Positions 6,938-32,689 of a DNA stretch of 49,814 bases are shown here, in pieces. The notes under the pieces are model-generated. The model was not told the origin of the DNA and did no database searches. It worked only from the letters and a program-made list of their open reading frames with translations. The stretch's first letter is position 1; each line of letters starts with the position of its first letter. The stretch comes from Bacteroidota bacterium. Lineage in GTDB: Bacteria > Bacteroidota > Bacteroidia > B-17B0 > Aurantibacillaceae. The stretch spans positions 1-49,814 of the forward strand of contig JAUXSA010000033.1 in NCBI GenBank assembly GCA_030681615.1, read 5' to 3'. Made by a program: the position numbers and the translations under genes.

Positions 6938-9058
6938 CTAAAGCTTAATGCCTGCAACGCATACGTCGTCTATCTGTTCAAGCGAGCCTTTCCAGTTATT
7001 AAACGTTTCATCAACTGTTTTTGATTGCTTATCAAAAGGCAGATCTTTTATGTTAAAAAATAATTGTGCTAATTTTTTACGCATAAATTTTTTACCGCTC
7101 GGGTTGCCTTTATCACCGCCAAATTGGTCATAATAACCGTCGGTAGAAAAATACAACAGATCGCCTTTATCTAATTCAATACTATGTGTGGTAAAAGGTT
7201 GGCTATGCTCTGAAAGGCCAATTGGCTGCTTGTTTGCGGTTAATTCTTTTATCTCGCCTTTATGAATATACCATAAGGAATTATTTGCCCCGGCCCATTT
7301 AATAGAGATTTTGTTTTCGGAAAGAGTATTACGTTCAATAGAGCATAATGATATATCCATTCCGTCTTTAACATTTTGCCCGGTCTTTGAAAATGTTTGA
7401 AGAACGATCTCTTTTGTTTTATCTAAGATCTTACCCGGATCAATTAATCCAAATTCTTTTGCAGCACTATCTAAAGCATTGCTGCATACTACACTCACAA
7501 GAGCGCCCGGCACACCATGGCCTGTGCAATCAGCAACGGCGAATAAAAAAACATCTTCATTCTTTTTGCCAACGGTTTTGTGTAACCAATAAAAATCGCC
7601 GGCAATAATATCTTTTGGTTTATAATAAATAAAACTGTCTTTAAAATCGTTTTGTATTTTAGCCAACGGTGGTAAAATTGCCTGTTGCAAATTTTTTGCA
7701 TAATTGATGCTATCAATAATATCTTTTTTCTGCGCTTCAATAAGATCGTTCTTTTGCTGTAGTATTAAATTATCTTTCTTTTTTTGGTTGTTGCTTTTTA
7801 AAACGATCAAGACTAGAACTAATAATAAAAGTAGGCCTGCAAAAGCAGCATATATTAAAATTTGTTTTCTTTCAAGTGCGTTTTTTGTTTCGAGTTCTTT
7901 TTTAAGTTGCGCGCGTTTGATCTCCTCCTGTTCTTTATCAAACTGGTTTTGCATTTCATAACGCGTTATCTCTGAAGTTTTAGAAGCATTAAATAATGAA
8001 TCTTTAAGCGCATCTGCTAATTTTTTATTTTCGAATGTTGAATCTATATCTCTTAAATAATAAAAGCATCTTGCTTTTGCCTTATACAACCCTGCCAATC
8101 TACTGATATCTTTATTTAAATTAGAATATTTTATTGACAGATTATAATCAACAATTGCCTCTTTAAATTTTTTTTGATGCTGACTAATATCGCCTCTGTT
8201 CTCATAAAAATGCGCTAAAAGAAAAGGATTTGATTTTTCGTTTAAATATTTTTGGGTGATATTCAAATATTTTATAGCCGAATCCATTTGATCTGCTTCA
8301 ATATAAAGGTTGGTGAAATTATTATATGTTAATGCCTTTTTTGAATCAGGGAATTTTAATTTTTCATTTAACATTATTGCTTTTGAATAATAATAGAGAG
8401 ACGAATCGGGCTTTTCTATATTCGAATAATAATTAGCAATATTTGCATAAGAAAGTGCCAGGCCCTTTTCATCCTTAGATTCGGTACGCATTTTCAATGC
8501 TTCATGAAAATACCATCCGGCTTTTTTATGTTGCCCTATGTCGCTATAAACATTTGCAAGGTTAGCATAATTACCTGCCAACTCAACTCTTGCATGTAAC
8601 TGATTTATTTTTATAGATTCCTGTAAATAATAAATTGCTTTTGGGTAATTTCCTGATTTTCTGTAAAGGATGGCTGTATTACCTAACGATGCTGCAATGA
8701 GTAGTGAATCTGAATTTCGGTAATCATAACTTATTAATTTAAGTGATACATCAAGGCAGTTGGCAATATCTCCTTTAAAAAAATAAAATGTAGTAAGGTC
8801 TGCAAGATGCGCTCTATAAGTAGTTGAATCTTTTGTGTTTTTTATTACACGCTCAATTACTTGTCTTGTTTTTTTTAATAGCTTATCGGCACCATCATAA
8901 TCATCCTTATCGTAATAACAATCTAATAAGCGTCTGTATTTTCTGATCTTAAGAGTGTCATTCGTTTCAGCGTCGGCTTGTTTCATATCACCTATACACT
9001 GTGCTTCTATTATTTTAGCAGTAAATAAAAATAATATTAGCCAGGTGATCTTTTTCAT
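6938..9058 (-). CDS. TPR-containing membrane SpoIIE-type Ser/Thr phosphatase
   Basis: A 706-residue protein with a signal peptide at 1-20 (MKKITWLILFLFTAKIIEAQ). About eight TPR-like helical repeats follow to about residue 340 (for example YANLANVYSDIGQHKKAGWYF). Next come a charged coiled segment, a transmembrane helix near 400-422 (ILIYAAFAGLLLLLVLVLIVL), a second coiled segment, and a PP2C/SpoIIE domain from about 470. Phosphatase motifs are readable: IIAGDFYW, ADCTGHGVPGA, WAGANNSLW and FSTDGYYDQFGG, which supply the metal-binding Asp residues. The TPRs would face the periplasm and the phosphatase the cytoplasm, so it should turn an envelope signal into dephosphorylation of an anti-sigma antagonist or similar partner. 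The small STAS-like gene downstream is a candidate partner. It starts 32 bases after the end of pntB. Confidence 0.92.
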   Translation of the reverse strand: MKKITWLILFLFTAKIIEAQCIGDMKQADAETNDTLKIRKYRRLLDCYYDKDDYDGADKLLKKTRQVIERVIKNTKDSTTYRAHLADLTTFYFFKGDIANCLDVSLKLISYDYRNSDSLLIAASLGNTAILYRKSGNYPKAIYYLQESIKINQLHARVELAGNYANLANVYSDIGQHKKAGWYFHEALKMRTESKDEKGLALSYANIANYYSNIEKPDSSLYYYSKAIMLNEKLKFPDSKKALTYNNFTNLYIEADQMDSAIKYLNITQKYLNEKSNPFLLAHFYENRGDISQHQKKFKEAIVDYNLSIKYSNLNKDISRLAGLYKAKARCFYYLRDIDSTFENKKLADALKDSLFNASKTSEITRYEMQNQFDKEQEEIKRAQLKKELETKNALERKQILIYAAFAGLLLLLVLVLIVLKSNNQKKKDNLILQQKNDLIEAQKKDIIDSINYAKNLQQAILPPLAKIQNDFKDSFIYYKPKDIIAGDFYWLHKTVGKKNEDVFLFAVADCTGHGVPGALVSVVCSNALDSAAKEFGLIDPGKILDKTKEIVLQTFSKTGQNVKDGMDISLCSIERNTLSENKISIKWAGANNSLWYIHKGEIKELTANKQPIGLSEHSQPFTTHSIELDKGDLLYFSTDGYYDQFGGDKGNPSGKKFMRKKLAQLFFNIKDLPFDKQSKTVDETFNNWKGSLEQIDDVCVAGIKL

Positions 9059-9090: not shown

Positions 9091-10491
9091 TTATGCTTTT
9101 AAAAAGCCCATGATCTTTTCAACGCTCGCTTTTGCATCGCCATAAAGCATCTCTGAATTTGGTTTGTAAAATAAAGGATTGTCTTCGCCAGAGTATCCTG
9201 CCGACATAGAGCGTTTCATAATGATCACTTTTTCCGCTTTCCATGCTTCAATAACAGGCATTCCGTAAATTGAACTTGCAGGATCATCCTGCGCGCCCGG
9301 ATTAACTACATCGTTTGCTCCAATAACCATTACTACATCCGTTTCTGGCATATCTTCGTTGATCTCATCCATTTCCAAAACAATATCGTAAGGCACGTTT
9401 GCTTCGGCCAATAACACATTCATGTGACCCGGTAAACGACCGGCAACAGGATGTATGGCGAATCTAACTTTTTTATTTGCTTTACGTAATGTTTGTACCA
9501 TATCAAAAATTGGATACTGCGCTTTAGCAACAGCCATACCATAACCCGGCACAATTACAACTGATTTAGCTTCTTTCAATAATGCTGCAACTTCTTCGTG
9601 ATTCAATGCAGTTACTTCACCTTCCATCGCTTTTTTCTCGCCACCAGAACCGCTACCTGCACCATTTGCAAATATTACAGAAAAGAACGAACGATTCATA
9701 GCGTGACACATGTGCATAGAAAGAATAGCACCCGAACTTCCAACTAAAGCACCTGTTACAATTAGCAAGTCGTTACCTAACATAAAGCCTGCTGCTGCTG
9801 CTGCCCAACCTGAATACGAGTTAAGCATTGAAACCACTACAGGCATATCTCCGCCACCAATTGCCATAACTAACACCACGCCAATAAAAGAAGCGATTAC
9901 AGTCATTATACCAAGATATAACATTCCGTCAGTTCCTTCTGCTTTGCAATATAAAACACCAAGAACAGTACAAGCTGCAAGCAACAATAAGTTCATGGTT
10001 TGAAGCCCTTTAAAACTCCATGGCTTGGAAGGAACTTTTCCGTCTAATTTTCCCCAGGCAATAATAGAACCAGTGAATGTAATAGCCCCAATAAAAATTC
10101 CTACAAAAACTTCCACTAAGTGAATAGTATGCGCCGCACCTTGCAATTCATGTGATTTAGGATCCAGATATGAGCCAAAACCAACCAGAACAGCCGCTAA
10201 TCCTACAAAGCTATGCAGGATGGCCACTAACTGCGGCATAGCTGTCATTTCTACTTTGCGCGCAAGCAGTAAACCAATTACCGAAGCAATAGCTATAGCC
10301 ACAATGATATAAATATGTCCGGCAACACCTTGTCCTAATACAGTTGCAATTATTGCCACGATCATACCAATGATCCCATAAACAACACCGCGCTTTGCCG
10401 ATTCTTGTGAGGACAATCCTCCTAAACTTAAAATAAACAATATACTTGCAAATAAGTATGCTGCTGTTTGTATTTCTTTTACGATGAACAT
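9091..10491 (-). CDS. pntB: NAD(P) transhydrogenase subunit beta
   Basis: A 466-residue PntB. Residues 1-265 hold about eight or nine membrane helices (proton channel, domain II). From about 285 lies the NADP(H)-binding domain III with [37 protein letters not shown] and [19 protein letters not shown]. Together with PntA it transfers hydride between NADH and NADP+ across the inner membrane, driven by the proton gradient, and supplies NADPH. It starts five bases after the pntA stop, so it belongs to the same operon. The length matches the usual beta subunit (about 460). Confidence 0.97.
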
Positions 10492-10496
10492 AGATC

Positions 10497-12041
10497 TTAT
10501 TTTTTAAACATTTTCAACATACGGTGAGTAACTACGAAACCACCAACAATATTAATGCTGGCAACCAAAATAGCAATAGAAGCCAGAATGGTCATTATGC
10601 TCGTCATATCATCATTTGTTTGTAATAAACCACCAACAACAATGATACCGCTGATAGCATTAGTTACGGCCATTAAAGGTGTATGCAATGAGTGCGCTAC
10701 ATTTGTTATAAGCTGCCAACCAACAAACACTGCTAAAATAAAAACAGTAAAGTGTTGTATAAATTCAGCAGGTGCAAATTTTCCTACTAAAAATAATAAC
10801 GCACCAACTACGGCCAAACTAATGAGCATTGATGTAGTTGCTTTTTTTGATTTTTCTGCATCAGATATTTTTAACTCTTCTGCAGTAGGCGCAACTACTT
10901 TTTTAGCACCGCCAGCAGTAGGACTAACAGGAAGTGGCGCAGGTGGCCAGTTAATTTTACCATTATGTGTTACCATTGCTCTTGAAACAACAGCATCTTC
11001 CATATCAATTTTCCATTTTTCTGCTTTACCCATGTCATCTAATAAATGACATAAGTTGTTACCATATAATTGCGAAGCCTGGCTTGGTAATTGACTTAAT
11101 TTACCAACTATAGTTACACCGTTATTGGTTGTAAACACTTCGCCATTTTTTGTGTAAGCACAGTTACCACCTGTAGAAGCTGCAAGATCGACAATTACAG
11201 ATCCCGGTTTCATAGCATCCACATGATAATCTAACCATAATTTTGGAGCAGGTCTGCCGGGAATTTGCGCAGTGGTAATTACAATATCAACTTCTTTAGC
11301 TTGCTCTAAAAATAATTTCATCTCTGCCTCAATAAATTCTTTACTCATTTCTTTTGAGTAACCTGATGAGGTGGCGCCATCTTCTTCAATTTCTACAGTT
11401 AAAAATTGCGCACCCATTGATTCAATTTGTTCGGCAACTTCTTTACGTGTATCAAATGCTCTTACAATAGCTCCTAATGAATTTGCCGCGCCAATAGCCG
11501 CTAAACCTGCAACACCGGCACCTATTACTAATACTTTTGCCGGCTCTACTTTACCAGCTGCAGTAATTTGTCCGTTTAAAAATCTTCCAAAATGATATGA
11601 GCCTTCAATAACAGATCTGTATCCTGCAATGTTTGCCATCGACGACAACACATCCATTTTTTGCGCTCTTGAGATACGCGGAATAGCATCCATTGCTATG
11701 GCGTTCACTTTTTTATCCGCTAATGTTTTTAATAGATCCTGGTTTTGTGCAGGCCATAAATAGCTTAACAAAACAAGGCCTTCTTTCATCATTCCAACTT
11801 CTTCAACCGAAGGCTCTTTTACTTTAAGAACTATATCTGAATTGCCATAAATATCGGCGGCAGAATTAACAATTTTAGCGCCTGCTTCTTCAAATTCCTT
11901 ATCAGAAAAATTTGCTTTTGTGCCGGCACCTTTTTGAATTTGAACTTCAAACCCTTGCTTTTGCAAACGTTTAACAGTTTTAGGAGTTGCGGCAACTCTT
12001 AGTTCGTTTGGAGATATTTCCGCTGGAATTCCAACTTTCAT
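10497..12041 (-). CDS. pntA: NAD(P) transhydrogenase subunit alpha
   Basis: A 514-residue full-length alpha subunit, not split into alpha-1 and alpha-2 as in some bacteria. The NAD-binding domain I occupies about 1-370 (start [20 protein letters not shown]; Rossmann motif [29 protein letters not shown]). A Pro/Ala linker near 375-395 precedes four membrane helices at about 405-510 ([24 protein letters not shown]). It binds NAD(H) and couples to PntB in the inner membrane. It is the first gene of pntAB, preceded by 73 bases after trmD. No separate -7 consensus is convincing there. Confidence 0.97.
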
Positions 12042-29177: not shown

Positions 29178-29981
29178 TTATTTTTTCAATTTAAGATCAT
29201 AAAAAATCTGATCGGTTATTTCAATTCTTGCTTTTGCCTTGTCAAAGTCTGGTGTTTGAATACAATTTGAAAAATAGTAAACATTGTCATTTGTTTCTAA
29301 ATAACCAATATACCAACCAATACTTTTTTTATCCCCATCTGACCAACCTGTTTTTGCTCTTAACACATAGCCCAAGGTATCTTTTACAATCATTATTCTT
29401 TTTACGATTTCAGTCGACCGTTTTGAAAAGACAAGTTTGTTATCATGAAGTCGTTTTAAAAAATCAATTTGTTGTTCAGGGGTAATCCTAAGTCCGCCTC
29501 TAAGCCAAAAAAGGTCAACTCCACCGCTCATATCCATATTACCAAATTTCGATTTATCGAGCCAATATTTCATTTTTTTTTCACCAACACGCCTTGCCAG
29601 TTCACGATAATACCAAACGGTAGAGTTTTTAAATGCTGTTTTTAAGTCATGGTCTGTATTCCATTTTGGGTTTTGTCTAACTACACTATCCCAGGGAATA
29701 ACAAAATTTTCGTCCTTAATAATTCCTGTTTCAAGGCCAATCAAAGAATTACAGATTTTAAAAGTTGATGCTGGGGAAAAAGAGTCGGTATACTGCTTTT
29801 TATTATAAAAGATAAGCTTATCATTTTTTGAGTCATATAAAACAAATGAGCCCTCAACATTCTGTTCGTCATAATACTTTTTAAAGTCGTTGCGAATTTC
29901 TTCCTTTTGTTTTATTCTAAAAGCAGTAAAAACTGTAACAGCTATTAATAATATTGTTATTACCGTTTTTCTGGTAGCCAT
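29178..29981 (-). CDS. Class D (OXA-type) beta-lactamase
   Basis: A 267-residue protein with an N-terminal hydrophobic signal or anchor (residues 5-20). All class D motifs are in order: nucleophile motif PASTFK (Ser72, Lys75, the Lys that is carboxylated in this class), S-x-V at 120-122 (STV), FGN at 146-148 where most enzymes have YGN, FWLRGG near 158-163 and KTG at 210-212 (RAKTGWSDG), then IGWYIGYLE. It should hydrolyse beta-lactams in the periplasm. The C-terminal sensor of BlaR1 is related, but the peptidase part of BlaR1 is missing, so an enzyme is the better reading. It begins 8 bases after the stop of the double D-Ala-D-Ala ligase gene, so the two are almost surely co-transcribed. Confidence 0.93.
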   Translation of the reverse strand: MATRKTVITILLIAVTVFTAFRIKQKEEIRNDFKKYYDEQNVEGSFVLYDSKNDKLIFYNKKQYTDSFSPASTFKICNSLIGLETGIIKDENFVIPWDSVVRQNPKWNTDHDLKTAFKNSTVWYYRELARRVGEKKMKYWLDKSKFGNMDMSGGVDLFWLRGGLRITPEQQIDFLKRLHDNKLVFSKRSTEIVKRIMIVKDTLGYVLRAKTGWSDGDKKSIGWYIGYLETNDNVYYFSNCIQTPDFDKAKARIEITDQIFYDLKLKK

Positions 29982-29989
29982 ATTGATAC

Positions 29990-32689
29990 CTATGAAACAG
30001 CTGCTAAACGCTCTTTGCCAAAATCAAGGATCTTGTCAATGAACTCATATGGCTTGTAATTATTAATGGCCGCCTGGTGAAAGATGCAGGTAGCAGGCGT
30101 CATACCAGGCAAAGAGTTAACTTCAATAAAAATTATTTCGGCTCTGCAATCATCAAAAACCCGCACAAAAGCGTCTATTCTACAATAACCTGTAACGCCC
30201 AATGCTTTTGCAGCACCGCCTAAAGCAGCCTTTACCTGCTCGCTTACTTTTTGCCTGTCTTTAGAATCTTTTGCATAACGTGCCGGTGTAATATTCTGAC
30301 CTTGCCCTGCTAAAAATTTTTCTTCCAGACTTAAAATTTCTCCATCGGCTAAAGCTTCTGATGCTTCAAACACTTCGTATTCTATTTCTCCCTTTTTATT
30401 TAATTTGGTGAGCATCCCACCTGTTACTTCTAAAAAATGGGTTGCGTTTTTTTTGCTGATGAGTTCTTCAACCAAAACAACCTGCTTTTGGGGGAATTCT
30501 TCTTTTGGTTTAATATGCAATGTTTCTGCAGCCTGCGCATCAAATTCTTCGGTCGTACGGAAGATCAATTTACAAAAGGCTTCAAACTCGGCCGGTGTTT
30601 TTATTTTCTTCACTGCGCTGCTGCAGCCGTCATCAACTGGTTTGGCAATGAAAGGATATTTAATCCGGTCCTTTAAAATTTCAGCGAATTTATTTTTATC
30701 CTTTGACCACTCTTCTTTAGAAATTAAAATATGATCGGCAATAAGAAAACCGTTATTCTTTAAAATTTCATTAGTGCGATACTTATCAATGGTAATAGAC
30801 GAGCTTTCTTTATTTGAACCGTTATATGGTAAGTTTATTTTATCCAATTGTTCTTGTATCGCGCCATCTTCGCCCGGACGACCATGTAGCGCAATAAATA
30901 CCTCATCCGCTTTTTGTTTTAACGATGCGTAATTTAATTTCTCTGGTTCTGCAGTATGATTTGCCGATGCGTATTTATGCGTAATAGCTTCGCATTGGTG
31001 CATAATACTAGTTATAACGGGATGCACTTTAAAATTCTCAACCTTTTCTTTTATATCATCGGCATTATCCTTCAACAATAAATTAATAGGCACGTGATAC
31101 ATTTGATGCTCCTGTGAATTACCGGTTAAAAAAACCGGAAAGGGCGCATATTTTTCTGATGACGCTAACTTTTCAAATACATTTCTTCCGCTTTCCACAG
31201 AAATATGGCGCTCCGATGAATAACCACCCAGCACAACGGCTACGCGTGTTTTGTTACTTATAGCATTTTTGTCTTTATCAATTTGCGCATCTAATAACTC
31301 CAACAAATGTTTGTACGTCACATTACCTTTTGATTGGATCAAACGTTTTGCAAGCGATGTGCGAATAATAAAAGTTAAGAATTGTGATGGGTTCAATCCT
31401 ATTTCTGCTGCCTGGTGAAAAAAGAAAGAAGAAGGCATCATTCCACTTGTAGTGTTTGGATCATTCAAAAATATCTTTCCATCCTTACTTAAAAAACCAT
31501 CAATACGTGCGTACACATCAAAGTGCAATTCGTAAAATAATTTTTCGCAGTCTTTACGTATCGCTTCAATTTGCGCATCGGGCAGATCAATTGGTGTTAT
31601 TTTTCTTGAAAGACCTGGTAAATATTTACTGCGGTAATCAAATAATTCTTTTCCTTTTTTTATCTCTGTTGGTGGTAACGCAATTGCTTTTCCTTCTTCA
31701 TCTTCCAACACTATACAACTAAATTCTTTCCCTTCAATAAATCCTTCAACCAACACTGTACTTTCGCCATCAATACTTTCTATGATATAACCATCTGTTT
31801 TTAAATTGGCGTTTAAAAATTCTATTAATTTATTTGGATCGTAAATTACTGGTGCGTTTAATTCTTTAGGATAACTAATAACTACCGGCATTCCCATACC
31901 CTCACGGATATCGGCTAATACTTTTACATAATTAAATTTTTCTTCATCACTATACCCCTGCCATTCTTTAGCATCTACCCAACGTGTGAATAATGCTTTT
32001 TCAACTGCACTCATAAATTCAAAATCGTTAGGCTCATTTAAAATACTAACACCAATACTCGAACCCTGGTTGGCAGGTTTAACCACACAAGGAAAACCGA
32101 TCAATTCGTTTACTTTCTTTAAAGATGTTTTTGATTTACCATCTATCCAATCCTGCCTGTTAATGGTTAAGTATTTCGGACTATTAAATCCTTTGCTTAC
32201 CATCATTTCTTTTTGCACCGCTTTATCAATGCCAATTGCTGAAGCTAAAATTCCGGAACCGCTATAAGGAATTTGATAATATTCAAACAACCCTTGTATA
32301 CGGCCATCTTCACCATAAGGACCGTGCAAACATAAAAATGCAAAATCAATTTTTGTTTTAAGATCTGTAGGTGATAATTTTTTTCCGATCTTTTGTATCA
32401 ATGCGTTTTGTTGTTCTACATTAAGCTCTCCTAAATTCTCTGCGTATAATTGAAAGCGCGAATTGTTTGGTAAAAATTCTACCGGTGGATAAAAATCGCG
32501 GATGGTGCCTTTGTAAATATATTCCCAATTCAGTTCAATAAAATTTCCAAAGCTGTCAACAAAAACAGGCACGGCTTCAAATAAAAATTTATTTAAATTG
32601 TCGTAAACCGTTCTTCCCCCGGCGAAAGAAATTTCGCGCTCTTTACTTTGTCCACCAAAAATGATACCGATTTTTATTTTGTTTGCCAT
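29990..32689 (-). CDS. Tandem fusion of two D-alanine-D-alanine ligase (ATP-grasp) domains
   Basis: An 899-residue protein made of two complete Ddl-like units; single Ddl enzymes are about 300-370 residues. Unit 1 (about 1-470) begins IGIIFGGQSKEREISFAGGR, and has LHGPYGEDGRIQG, SGILASAIGIDK (about 150) and KPANQGSSIGVS (about 205), but the metal-binding end motif reads LNDPNTTSGM (about 410). Unit 2 (from about 480) begins VAVVLGGYSSERHISVESGR, and has LHGRPGEDGAIQ, an altered SNKESSSITIDK (about 630) and KPVDDGCSSAV (about 686), but a canonical end motif IEVNSLPGMTPA (about 860). Ddl joins two D-Ala for peptidoglycan precursors in the cytoplasm. Complementary deviations suggest division of labour or one regulatory half. 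It is the first gene of an operon with a class D beta-lactamase. Confidence 0.92.
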   Translation of the reverse strand: MANKIKIGIIFGGQSKEREISFAGGRTVYDNLNKFLFEAVPVFVDSFGNFIELNWEYIYKGTIRDFYPPVEFLPNNSRFQLYAENLGELNVEQQNALIQKIGKKLSPTDLKTKIDFAFLCLHGPYGEDGRIQGLFEYYQIPYSGSGILASAIGIDKAVQKEMMVSKGFNSPKYLTINRQDWIDGKSKTSLKKVNELIGFPCVVKPANQGSSIGVSILNEPNDFEFMSAVEKALFTRWVDAKEWQGYSDEEKFNYVKVLADIREGMGMPVVISYPKELNAPVIYDPNKLIEFLNANLKTDGYIIESIDGESTVLVEGFIEGKEFSCIVLEDEEGKAIALPPTEIKKGKELFDYRSKYLPGLSRKITPIDLPDAQIEAIRKDCEKLFYELHFDVYARIDGFLSKDGKIFLNDPNTTSGMMPSSFFFHQAAEIGLNPSQFLTFIIRTSLAKRLIQSKGNVTYKHLLELLDAQIDKDKNAISNKTRVAVVLGGYSSERHISVESGRNVFEKLASSEKYAPFPVFLTGNSQEHQMYHVPINLLLKDNADDIKEKVENFKVHPVITSIMHQCEAITHKYASANHTAEPEKLNYASLKQKADEVFIALHGRPGEDGAIQEQLDKINLPYNGSNKESSSITIDKYRTNEILKNNGFLIADHILISKEEWSKDKNKFAEILKDRIKYPFIAKPVDDGCSSAVKKIKTPAEFEAFCKLIFRTTEEFDAQAAETLHIKPKEEFPQKQVVLVEELISKKNATHFLEVTGGMLTKLNKKGEIEYEVFEASEALADGEILSLEEKFLAGQGQNITPARYAKDSKDRQKVSEQVKAALGGAAKALGVTGYCRIDAFVRVFDDCRAEIIFIEVNSLPGMTPATCIFHQAAINNYKPYEFIDKILDFGKERLAAVS

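Follow-up and report, generated by a model that had tools for sequence, protein, structure and literature searches.

The gene described here lies on contig JAUXSA010000033.1 of Bacteroidota bacterium (GenBank assembly GCA_030681615.1; class Bacteroidia, family Aurantibacillaceae), of which a stretch of 49,814 nucleotides, hereafter the window, was analyzed. A single intact, ATG-started open reading frame of 899 amino acids (aa) spans exactly positions 29990-32689 on the minus strand and encodes two D-alanine-D-alanine (D-Ala-D-Ala) ligase (Ddl) units in one chain, as a preliminary description of this sequence had proposed. Relatives of this fusion are widespread in the class, and the two units carry different, fixed changes at their active sites. 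Handles beginning with L, G, C and f denote loci, genomes, contigs and families, respectively.

A tandem D-Ala-D-Ala ligase gene

Pfam recognizes the Ddl N-domain (PF01820) in two stretches of the 899-aa protein (1.3e-50; 171.4 bits, cut-off 34.6) and the Ddl C-domain (PF07478) in several (8.4e-56; 189.1 bits, cut-off 24). An AlphaFold2 model, built from a 36-row alignment (A1) of full-length fused proteins from which L084 was left out because of a stop inside the stretch, has a mean predicted local distance difference test score of 85.3 and a predicted template modeling score of 0.86; confidence drops below 50 at both omega loops (348-353 and 356-360; 792-797) and at residues 865-867. In structure comparisons, model residues 3-452 match the Thermus Ddl (6u1d; Z 36.3, root-mean-square deviation 2.1, 320 residues aligned), while residues 478-899 give a separate match to the Coxiella Ddl (3tqt; Z 36.2, deviation 2.7, 324 aligned). 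Each half is therefore, in the model, a complete Ddl fold, and a long predicted helix (457-479) connects unit 1 to unit 2. The gene and the positions discussed below are as follows (residue counts refer to 71 aligned fused proteins).

29990..32689, minus strand: tandem D-Ala-D-Ala ligase gene, 899 aa; stop codon at 29990-29992
31295..32689, minus strand: unit 1, residues about 1-465; scored catalytic residues canonical except E270D
31253..31321, minus strand: inter-unit helix H457-479, from the AlphaFold2 model
29993..31252, minus strand: unit 2, residues 480-899; Ddl paralogue with S150C, G153A, Y212L, Y216F and S281T
31460..31462, minus strand: unit 1 Asp410 codon (DdlB Glu270, metal ligand); Asp in 71/71
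31622..31624, minus strand: unit 1 Tyr356 codon (DdlB Tyr216), canonical; Tyr in 71/71
30623..30625, minus strand: unit 2 Cys689 codon (DdlB Ser150); Cys in 71/71
30314..30316, minus strand: unit 2 Phe792 codon (DdlB Tyr216, omega loop), the 'F-type' position; Phe in 71/71
30122..30124, minus strand: unit 2 Glu856 codon (DdlB Glu270), canonical; Glu in 70/71, the exception being taken to be the frame-broken L045

Fixed active-site differences between the two units

Residues are numbered as in Escherichia coli DdlB, and we take E15, K97, K144, S150, E180, E187, K215, Y216, R255, D257, E270 and N272 to have the roles assigned to them in that enzyme. The residue alignment comprised 71 full-length fused proteins, namely the window and 70 relatives with frames of at least 865 aa; the remaining eight of 78 loci, with shorter frames, were left out. 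In the window's own protein, unit 1 keeps the whole scored catalytic set save for E270D, with N272 retained, and unit 2 keeps it save for S150C and Y216F.

These states are shared by the relatives. Every one of the 71 unit 1s has E15, S150, K215, Y216, R255, D257, N272 and S281, as well as Asp in place of Glu at position 270; K144 is Arg in eight. Unit 2 has Cys150, Leu212 and Phe216 in 71/71 and Thr281 in 70, along with E15, K97, K144, E180, E187, K215, R255 and D257 in all and E270 and N272 in 70. K97, E180 and E187 are thus retained in both units throughout. Thirty single Ddls in the same alignment, in contrast, have Ser150 and Tyr216 without exception and Glu270 in 29 cases plus one gap, so that none of them has the states fixed in the fused proteins, namely Asp270 in unit 1 and Cys150 and Phe216 in unit 2.

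A survey of the class added 29 fused proteins, all of which have the same unit 1 states and Cys150 and Phe216 in unit 2; the unit 2 E270/N272 motif is present in 28 (L159, L160 and L163 included), the exception being the frame-broken L153. Among six divergent fused proteins, Asp270 of unit 1 is found in all six, and Cys150 and Phe216 in the five with unit 2 letters. Phe216 is therefore present in every unit 2 that has a letter at that position, and every scored unit 1 has Tyr. Mean identity to the query is the same for the two units (0.67 for unit 2, 0.67 for unit 1). L045 and L153 are both tandem frames of 865 aa in which unit 2 ends early, with the same odd end and perhaps from one genome; they represent either a broken gene or a sequencing error.

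The preliminary description had pointed to complementary deviations in the two units on the basis of short peptides, all of which are present, although only some prove to be real deviations. Complementary changes do exist (E270D in unit 1; S150C and Y216F in unit 2), and the unit 2 peptide KPVDDGCSSAV is a true departure, carrying S150C and G153A. The unit 2 peptide SNKESSSITIDK, taken to be a degenerate K97 motif, retains K97, and its differences are harmless. Nor does unit 1 lack its metal-binding motif, as had been suggested from the peptide LNDPNTTSGM: the metal-ligand pair is retained as Asp/Asn (E270D with N272 unchanged), and P275S and L282F nearby also differ from E. coli DdlB. Judged from the alignment, E270D is a conservative swap by which the metal site would not be lost. 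A metal-dead unit 1 was rejected, since Asp here replaces Glu and is retained in nine proteins, described below, that have no catalytic part of unit 2.

In unit 2, Phe792 falls at the position of the Phe in the DdlB Y216F mutant, whose structure is solved (1iow). It also shares a column with the Phe of a plasmid-borne Latilactobacillus curvatus Ddl (a copy that may differ from the enzyme assayed), which, unlike unit 2, keeps Ser150.

Distribution of the fusion and its status as the native ddl gene

Relatives were sought in one genome per species, many of the genomes being drafts or metagenome-assembled genomes; frame lengths come largely from search tables, with sequences read for part of them. 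The 78 loci that encode relatives come from metagenome-assembled genomes and from named organisms, including Hymenobacter, Rhodocytophaga, Flexithrix, Lewinella/Neolewinella and Saprospiraceae, and the fusion is present on the complete chromosome of Hymenobacter sp. BT18 (L054). A single frame of 897-952 aa holds the two N-domains in 60 of the 65 genomes from the window's order; one of these, G359, has an additional match in a 336-aa frame. In the remaining five genomes (G318, G348, G350, G351, G358), the frames are shorter or the pieces lie on different contigs. When the class was sampled evenly, a unit-1-type match with E below 1e-50 was found in 113 of 247 genomes and lay in a frame of at least 865 aa in 106 of them. 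The phylum was also sampled evenly; there, genomes outside the class each have one N-domain match, apart from one genome with none.

It is extremely improbable that the tandem is an assembly artefact or a chance fusion of neighboring genes in one genome. The window does stem from a 199-contig draft, and we found nothing else that would support this explanation, which is refuted by the 78 loci, the 70 frames of at least 865 aa, the complete chromosome and the recurrence in the window's order (60 of 65 genomes). The fusion, whose halves are not both canonical, is instead seen throughout the relatives.

The fused gene is almost certainly the native ddl. In all 24 genomes reached via fused loci, PF01820 matches twice and no more, each time inside the fused frame, and the two PF01820 matches in the window's own genome both lie in the tandem gene. 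The separate single-unit ddl that the preliminary description suggested looking for was sought in that genome with the Ddl-specific N-domain (PF01820), and none was detected. Four ATP-grasp matches read as candidates for a hidden second ddl turned out to be RimK, PurT and two biotin carboxylases; this check left out weak PF07478 matches on C3, C19, C158 and C187, and the N-domain has just the two matches.

Other architectures were also encountered. A lone Ddl N-domain match elsewhere in the phylum lies in a 944-aa frame (G135:C55:57395-57778), perhaps a different Ddl fusion, and in five genomes (G621, G597, G669, G699, G706) the frames reported for unit 1 or unit 2 matches are 1149-1389 aa long, which suggests that the tandem ligase has extra C-terminal fusion partners there.

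Loss of unit 2, split genes and phylogeny

Three families in the order of G249, namely f11 (14 genomes), f110 (9) and f112 (10), have their unit 1 match in a frame of 558-657 aa in 33/33 genomes. Nine of these short frames were read: the catalytic part of unit 2 is missing in all nine, Asp270 is kept, and each ends in a remnant of the unit 2 N-domain, recognized by a search match (G190), by BLAST (seven; 30-76 bits) or by eye (G249). Eight of the nine could be placed on a tree, where they form one clade (support 100); loss of the catalytic part of unit 2 consequently looks like a single event. In G190 and G249, three queries found no Ddl other than a unit 1 with Asp270, and murF scores over its cut-off in both. 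The other 31 genomes were searched with the unit 1 query alone; one match was found in 31 of the 33, the exceptions being G640 (two further matches) and G651 (two pieces, one frame).

Family f126, which consists mostly of small genomes, shows a different pattern. Nineteen of its 21 genomes have a match: two separate single-unit genes in 12, the fused gene in six and unit 2 only in one (G662). The second gene was read in nine of the 12 split genomes (all but G702, G720 and G722) and is unit 2 in each, and murF is over the cut-off in 18 of the 21, G662 included. The split genomes comprise G684, G614, G719 and nine others (L206-L212, L239, L252); in G684, the separate unit 2 gene lies about 340 kb from unit 1. 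Ten free-standing unit 2s were read, and all ten have Phe216; Cys150 is found in eight. Two free-standing unit 1s, L210 (G614) and L213 (G601), have an unusual His63 motif and were identified by BLAST.

In an IQ-TREE phylogeny of 95 rows (a quick search, some rows being of odd composition; L107, L111, L128 and L185 were left out, and L124, L189 and L191 gave no row), unit 1s (36 rows) form one group with support 99 and unit 2s (30 rows) another with support 100, and the two are joined to the exclusion of 29 other Ddls with support 92 (not starred). FastTree on a smaller set gave the same grouping, with unit 1 less well supported (0.70). This topology fits an origin of the tandem by one duplication followed by fusion. 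The split and fused forms of f126 are interleaved on the IQ-TREE tree, which suggests that fission happened more than once in this family; on this basis, the proposal that the fusion is needed for function was rejected.

Comparison with known ligases

In both units, the two Ddl domains, the overall fold and almost every scored catalytic residue are as in E. coli DdlB (2dln/1iow). The tandem differs in having two units per chain, with 29% (unit 1) and 27% (unit 2) identity to DdlB, and in the residues E270D of unit 1 and S150C, G153A, Y212L, Y216F and S281T of unit 2. On TIGR01205 (cut-off 245.65), the whole protein scores 383.8, the sum of its two units, with unit 1 alone at 235.0 and unit 2 alone at 155.1. 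The MurC-Ddl fusion (NF011171) resembles the tandem in joining Ddl to a protein of the same pathway; the partner there is MurC rather than a second Ddl, and the tandem scores 171.9 bits against a cut-off of 1015.

VanA/VanB-type D-Ala-D-lactate (D-Ala-D-Lac) ligases and VanG/VanC-type D-Ala-D-Ser ligases have the superfamily and fold in common with the tandem units. The tandem scores far below their curated cut-offs, however, and has no van partner in the five flanking genes scanned; a Van-type identity was rejected on the strength of the scores against NF000206 given below.

The F-type Ddls of vancomycin-resistant lactic acid bacteria (Leuconostoc LmDdl2, 1ehi; Lactobacillus), which are known as single-unit enzymes, share the Phe with unit 2, whereas the one examined, the L. 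curvatus plasmid copy, retains Ser150 and does not group with unit 2 in the tree. DdlB mutants with new ester-forming activity are reportedly Y216F and S150A, both in the Glu15-Ser150-Tyr216 triad. According to one report, a single active-site residue, Phe versus Tyr, sets the depsipeptide versus dipeptide activity of Ddl; F261Y turned the Leuconostoc enzyme from a depsipeptide into a dipeptide ligase, and F258Y in Lactobacillus reuteri gave a vancomycin-sensitive derivative (PMC5996685).

Proposed roles of the two units

We favor a reading in which the cell's only detected D-Ala ligase would be a pair of diverged Ddl paralogues, the outcome of a duplication and a fusion in an ancestor shared by many Bacteroidia lineages. 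Unit 1 would be the D-Ala:D-Ala ligase, its E270D change being tolerated; it is highly likely to be an active Ddl and very probably the housekeeping enzyme. It appears to suffice alone, given the 33/33 short-frame genomes and the presence of murF in G190 and G249. Unit 2 would be a second ligase, in which the scored ATP and Mg residues are kept and the acceptor-site triad Glu15-Ser150-Tyr216 is changed at two of its three positions. It would join D-Ala to another acceptor, yielding a D-Ala-D-X product, with D-lactate or another D-hydroxy acid as a leading candidate, and this product would be passed to MurF alongside D-Ala-D-Ala.

That unit 2 is catalytic with an altered acceptor specificity seems to us an evenly balanced proposition. 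Catalysis is favored by the retention of the nucleotide and metal residues, by an identity equal to that of unit 1, by the persistence of unit 2 as a separate gene and by its occurrence alone in G662, and a different acceptor side is indicated by the fixed Phe and nearly fixed Cys. The preliminary description had suggested different substrates, for example D-Ala-D-X; this is the reading that the sequence evidence favors, although the most telling change, Y216F (and also Y212L), had been overlooked. The Phe/Tyr rule suggests D-lactate, but the rule-following L. curvatus enzyme examined has Ser at position 150, and D-lactate in particular is a rather unlikely choice; D-Ser, Gly or other acceptors are also candidates.

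Several observations weigh against this proposal. The Phe/Tyr rule may not carry over to unit 2, DdlB Y216F can reportedly still make D-Ala-D-Ala, and we know of no characterized counterpart for S150C, Y212L or S281T. Unit 2 groups with unit 1, whereas the L. curvatus Ddl groups with the single Ddls (one row from lactic acid bacteria, on a long branch), and the scores of 91.7 bits for unit 2 and 119.8 for unit 1 fall far short of the 550-bit cut-off of the D-Ala-D-Lac model NF000206. The search for vanH/vanX-like genes covered only the five flanking genes, not more distant parts of the genome, and found none there. Position 150 is Ser rather than Cys in the unit 2s of G662 (L216) and G715 (L215), and G662 is one draft genome, 96% complete, from which unit 1 may merely be missing. 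The catalytic part of unit 2 is gone in a whole clade, and its product is therefore not essential there. The fusion is also patchy in the class: a strong unit-1-type match is lacking in 134 of the 247 sampled genomes, one of which has no match at all and the rest weaker ones resembling those of single Ddls. In the order of G249, weak matches of this single-Ddl kind are all that family f9 and a few others have.

Two other roles for unit 2 are serious rivals to that of a ligase with a changed acceptor. Unit 2 might be a regulatory half with little or no catalytic activity; with ATP and D-Ala (or D-Ala-D-Ala) as its ligands, it would tune or stabilize unit 1 within a built-in pseudo-dimer that takes the place of the Ddl homodimer. 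We regard this as possible though on the unlikely side. The fixed active-site changes lie in the omega loop and Ser150 loop of unit 2, its catalytic part is dispensable in three families (33/33 short frames, nine of them read), and 18 of the 19 matched f126 genomes have two N-domains, so that unit 2 nearly always accompanies unit 1. A decaying pseudoenzyme, however, would not be expected to keep all of the scored ATP, Mg and K215/R255/D257 residues; moreover, unit 2 persists as a distant gene in G684, and G662 has unit 2 and murF with no detected unit 1.

Somewhat less probable still is that both units make D-Ala-D-Ala, with the changes in unit 2 adjusting kinetics (pH, affinity, or inhibition by product or D-cycloserine) to give a high-capacity or differently regulated enzyme, akin to E. 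coli DdlA and DdlB in one chain. E. coli has two Ddls, and several E. coli records show Ddl matches at two places. Both units retain the catalytic residues, and for each there are murF-bearing genomes in which it is the only Ddl detected (G190 and G249 for unit 1, G662 for unit 2). A purely kinetic role would nonetheless not be expected to fix Phe216, which is found in all unit 2s that can be scored at this position, as opposed to Tyr in the single Ddls and every scored unit 1.

Ddl is a textbook drug target that is usually treated as a single-unit enzyme. Narrow searches of the literature found no description of a tandem or fused Ddl, or of D-Ala-D-Lac in Bacteroidetes. The presumably essential ligase of a large, little-studied group here departs from the single-unit architecture and has a second putative active site. 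Should the proposal of a ligase with an altered acceptor hold, a widespread Gram-negative enzyme would make two peptidoglycan termini from one polypeptide; that these are D-Ala-D-Ala from unit 1 and a D-Ala-D-lactate-type or other D-Ala-D-X end from unit 2 we consider possible but rather unlikely. An 'F-type' ligase would in that case have arisen independently of the lactic acid bacteria and the Van operons, built into the housekeeping ddl, and over two fifths of the sampled class genomes (106/247) could harbor a hidden second cell-wall ending or a reserve route. Peptidoglycan chemistry and the responses to beta-lactams and glycopeptides would need revisiting in this group if unit 2 makes an end other than D-Ala-D-Ala. 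With unit 2 lost in one clade and encoded separately in another, the family offers natural comparisons for the role of the second unit.

Genomic neighborhood and other genes in the window

The five flanking genes scanned encode a class D beta-lactamase, an ABC2 permease, an AHSA1 protein, a GSDH protein and a metallophosphatase. The class D (OXA-type) beta-lactamase gene (29178-29981, minus strand) lies directly downstream of the ligase gene and scores 267.5 against an NCBIfam equivalog cut-off of 250. It is found beside the fusion in just one of 63 loci, the window itself, and is accordingly a local neighbor; a functional pairing was rejected on these grounds.

A PASTA-like gene is associated with the fusion in 25 of the 63 loci, following it in the same locus in 21 and fused to the tandem in four; the window's own locus has no such neighbor. 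Pfam confirmed PASTA in the three proteins scanned (L081, L066, L054). On a Bacteroides plasmid record, PASTA, RluA-family and single-unit ddl genes lie side by side, and the PASTA gene, where present, would thus mark a ddl-like neighborhood. The Lewinella/Saprospiraceae loci L066, L081, L082 and L094 (4946-8723 and similar) contain Ddl-Ddl-PASTA triple fusions in frames of 1195-1259 aa, in which a membrane segment was judged by eye and the PASTA domain is Pfam-confirmed in L066 and L081.

Elsewhere in the window, genes for the alpha and beta subunits of NAD(P) transhydrogenase lie side by side at 9091-12041 (minus strand), and a gene at 6938-9058 (minus strand) encodes a protein that combines tetratricopeptide repeats with a SpoIIE-type phosphatase domain.

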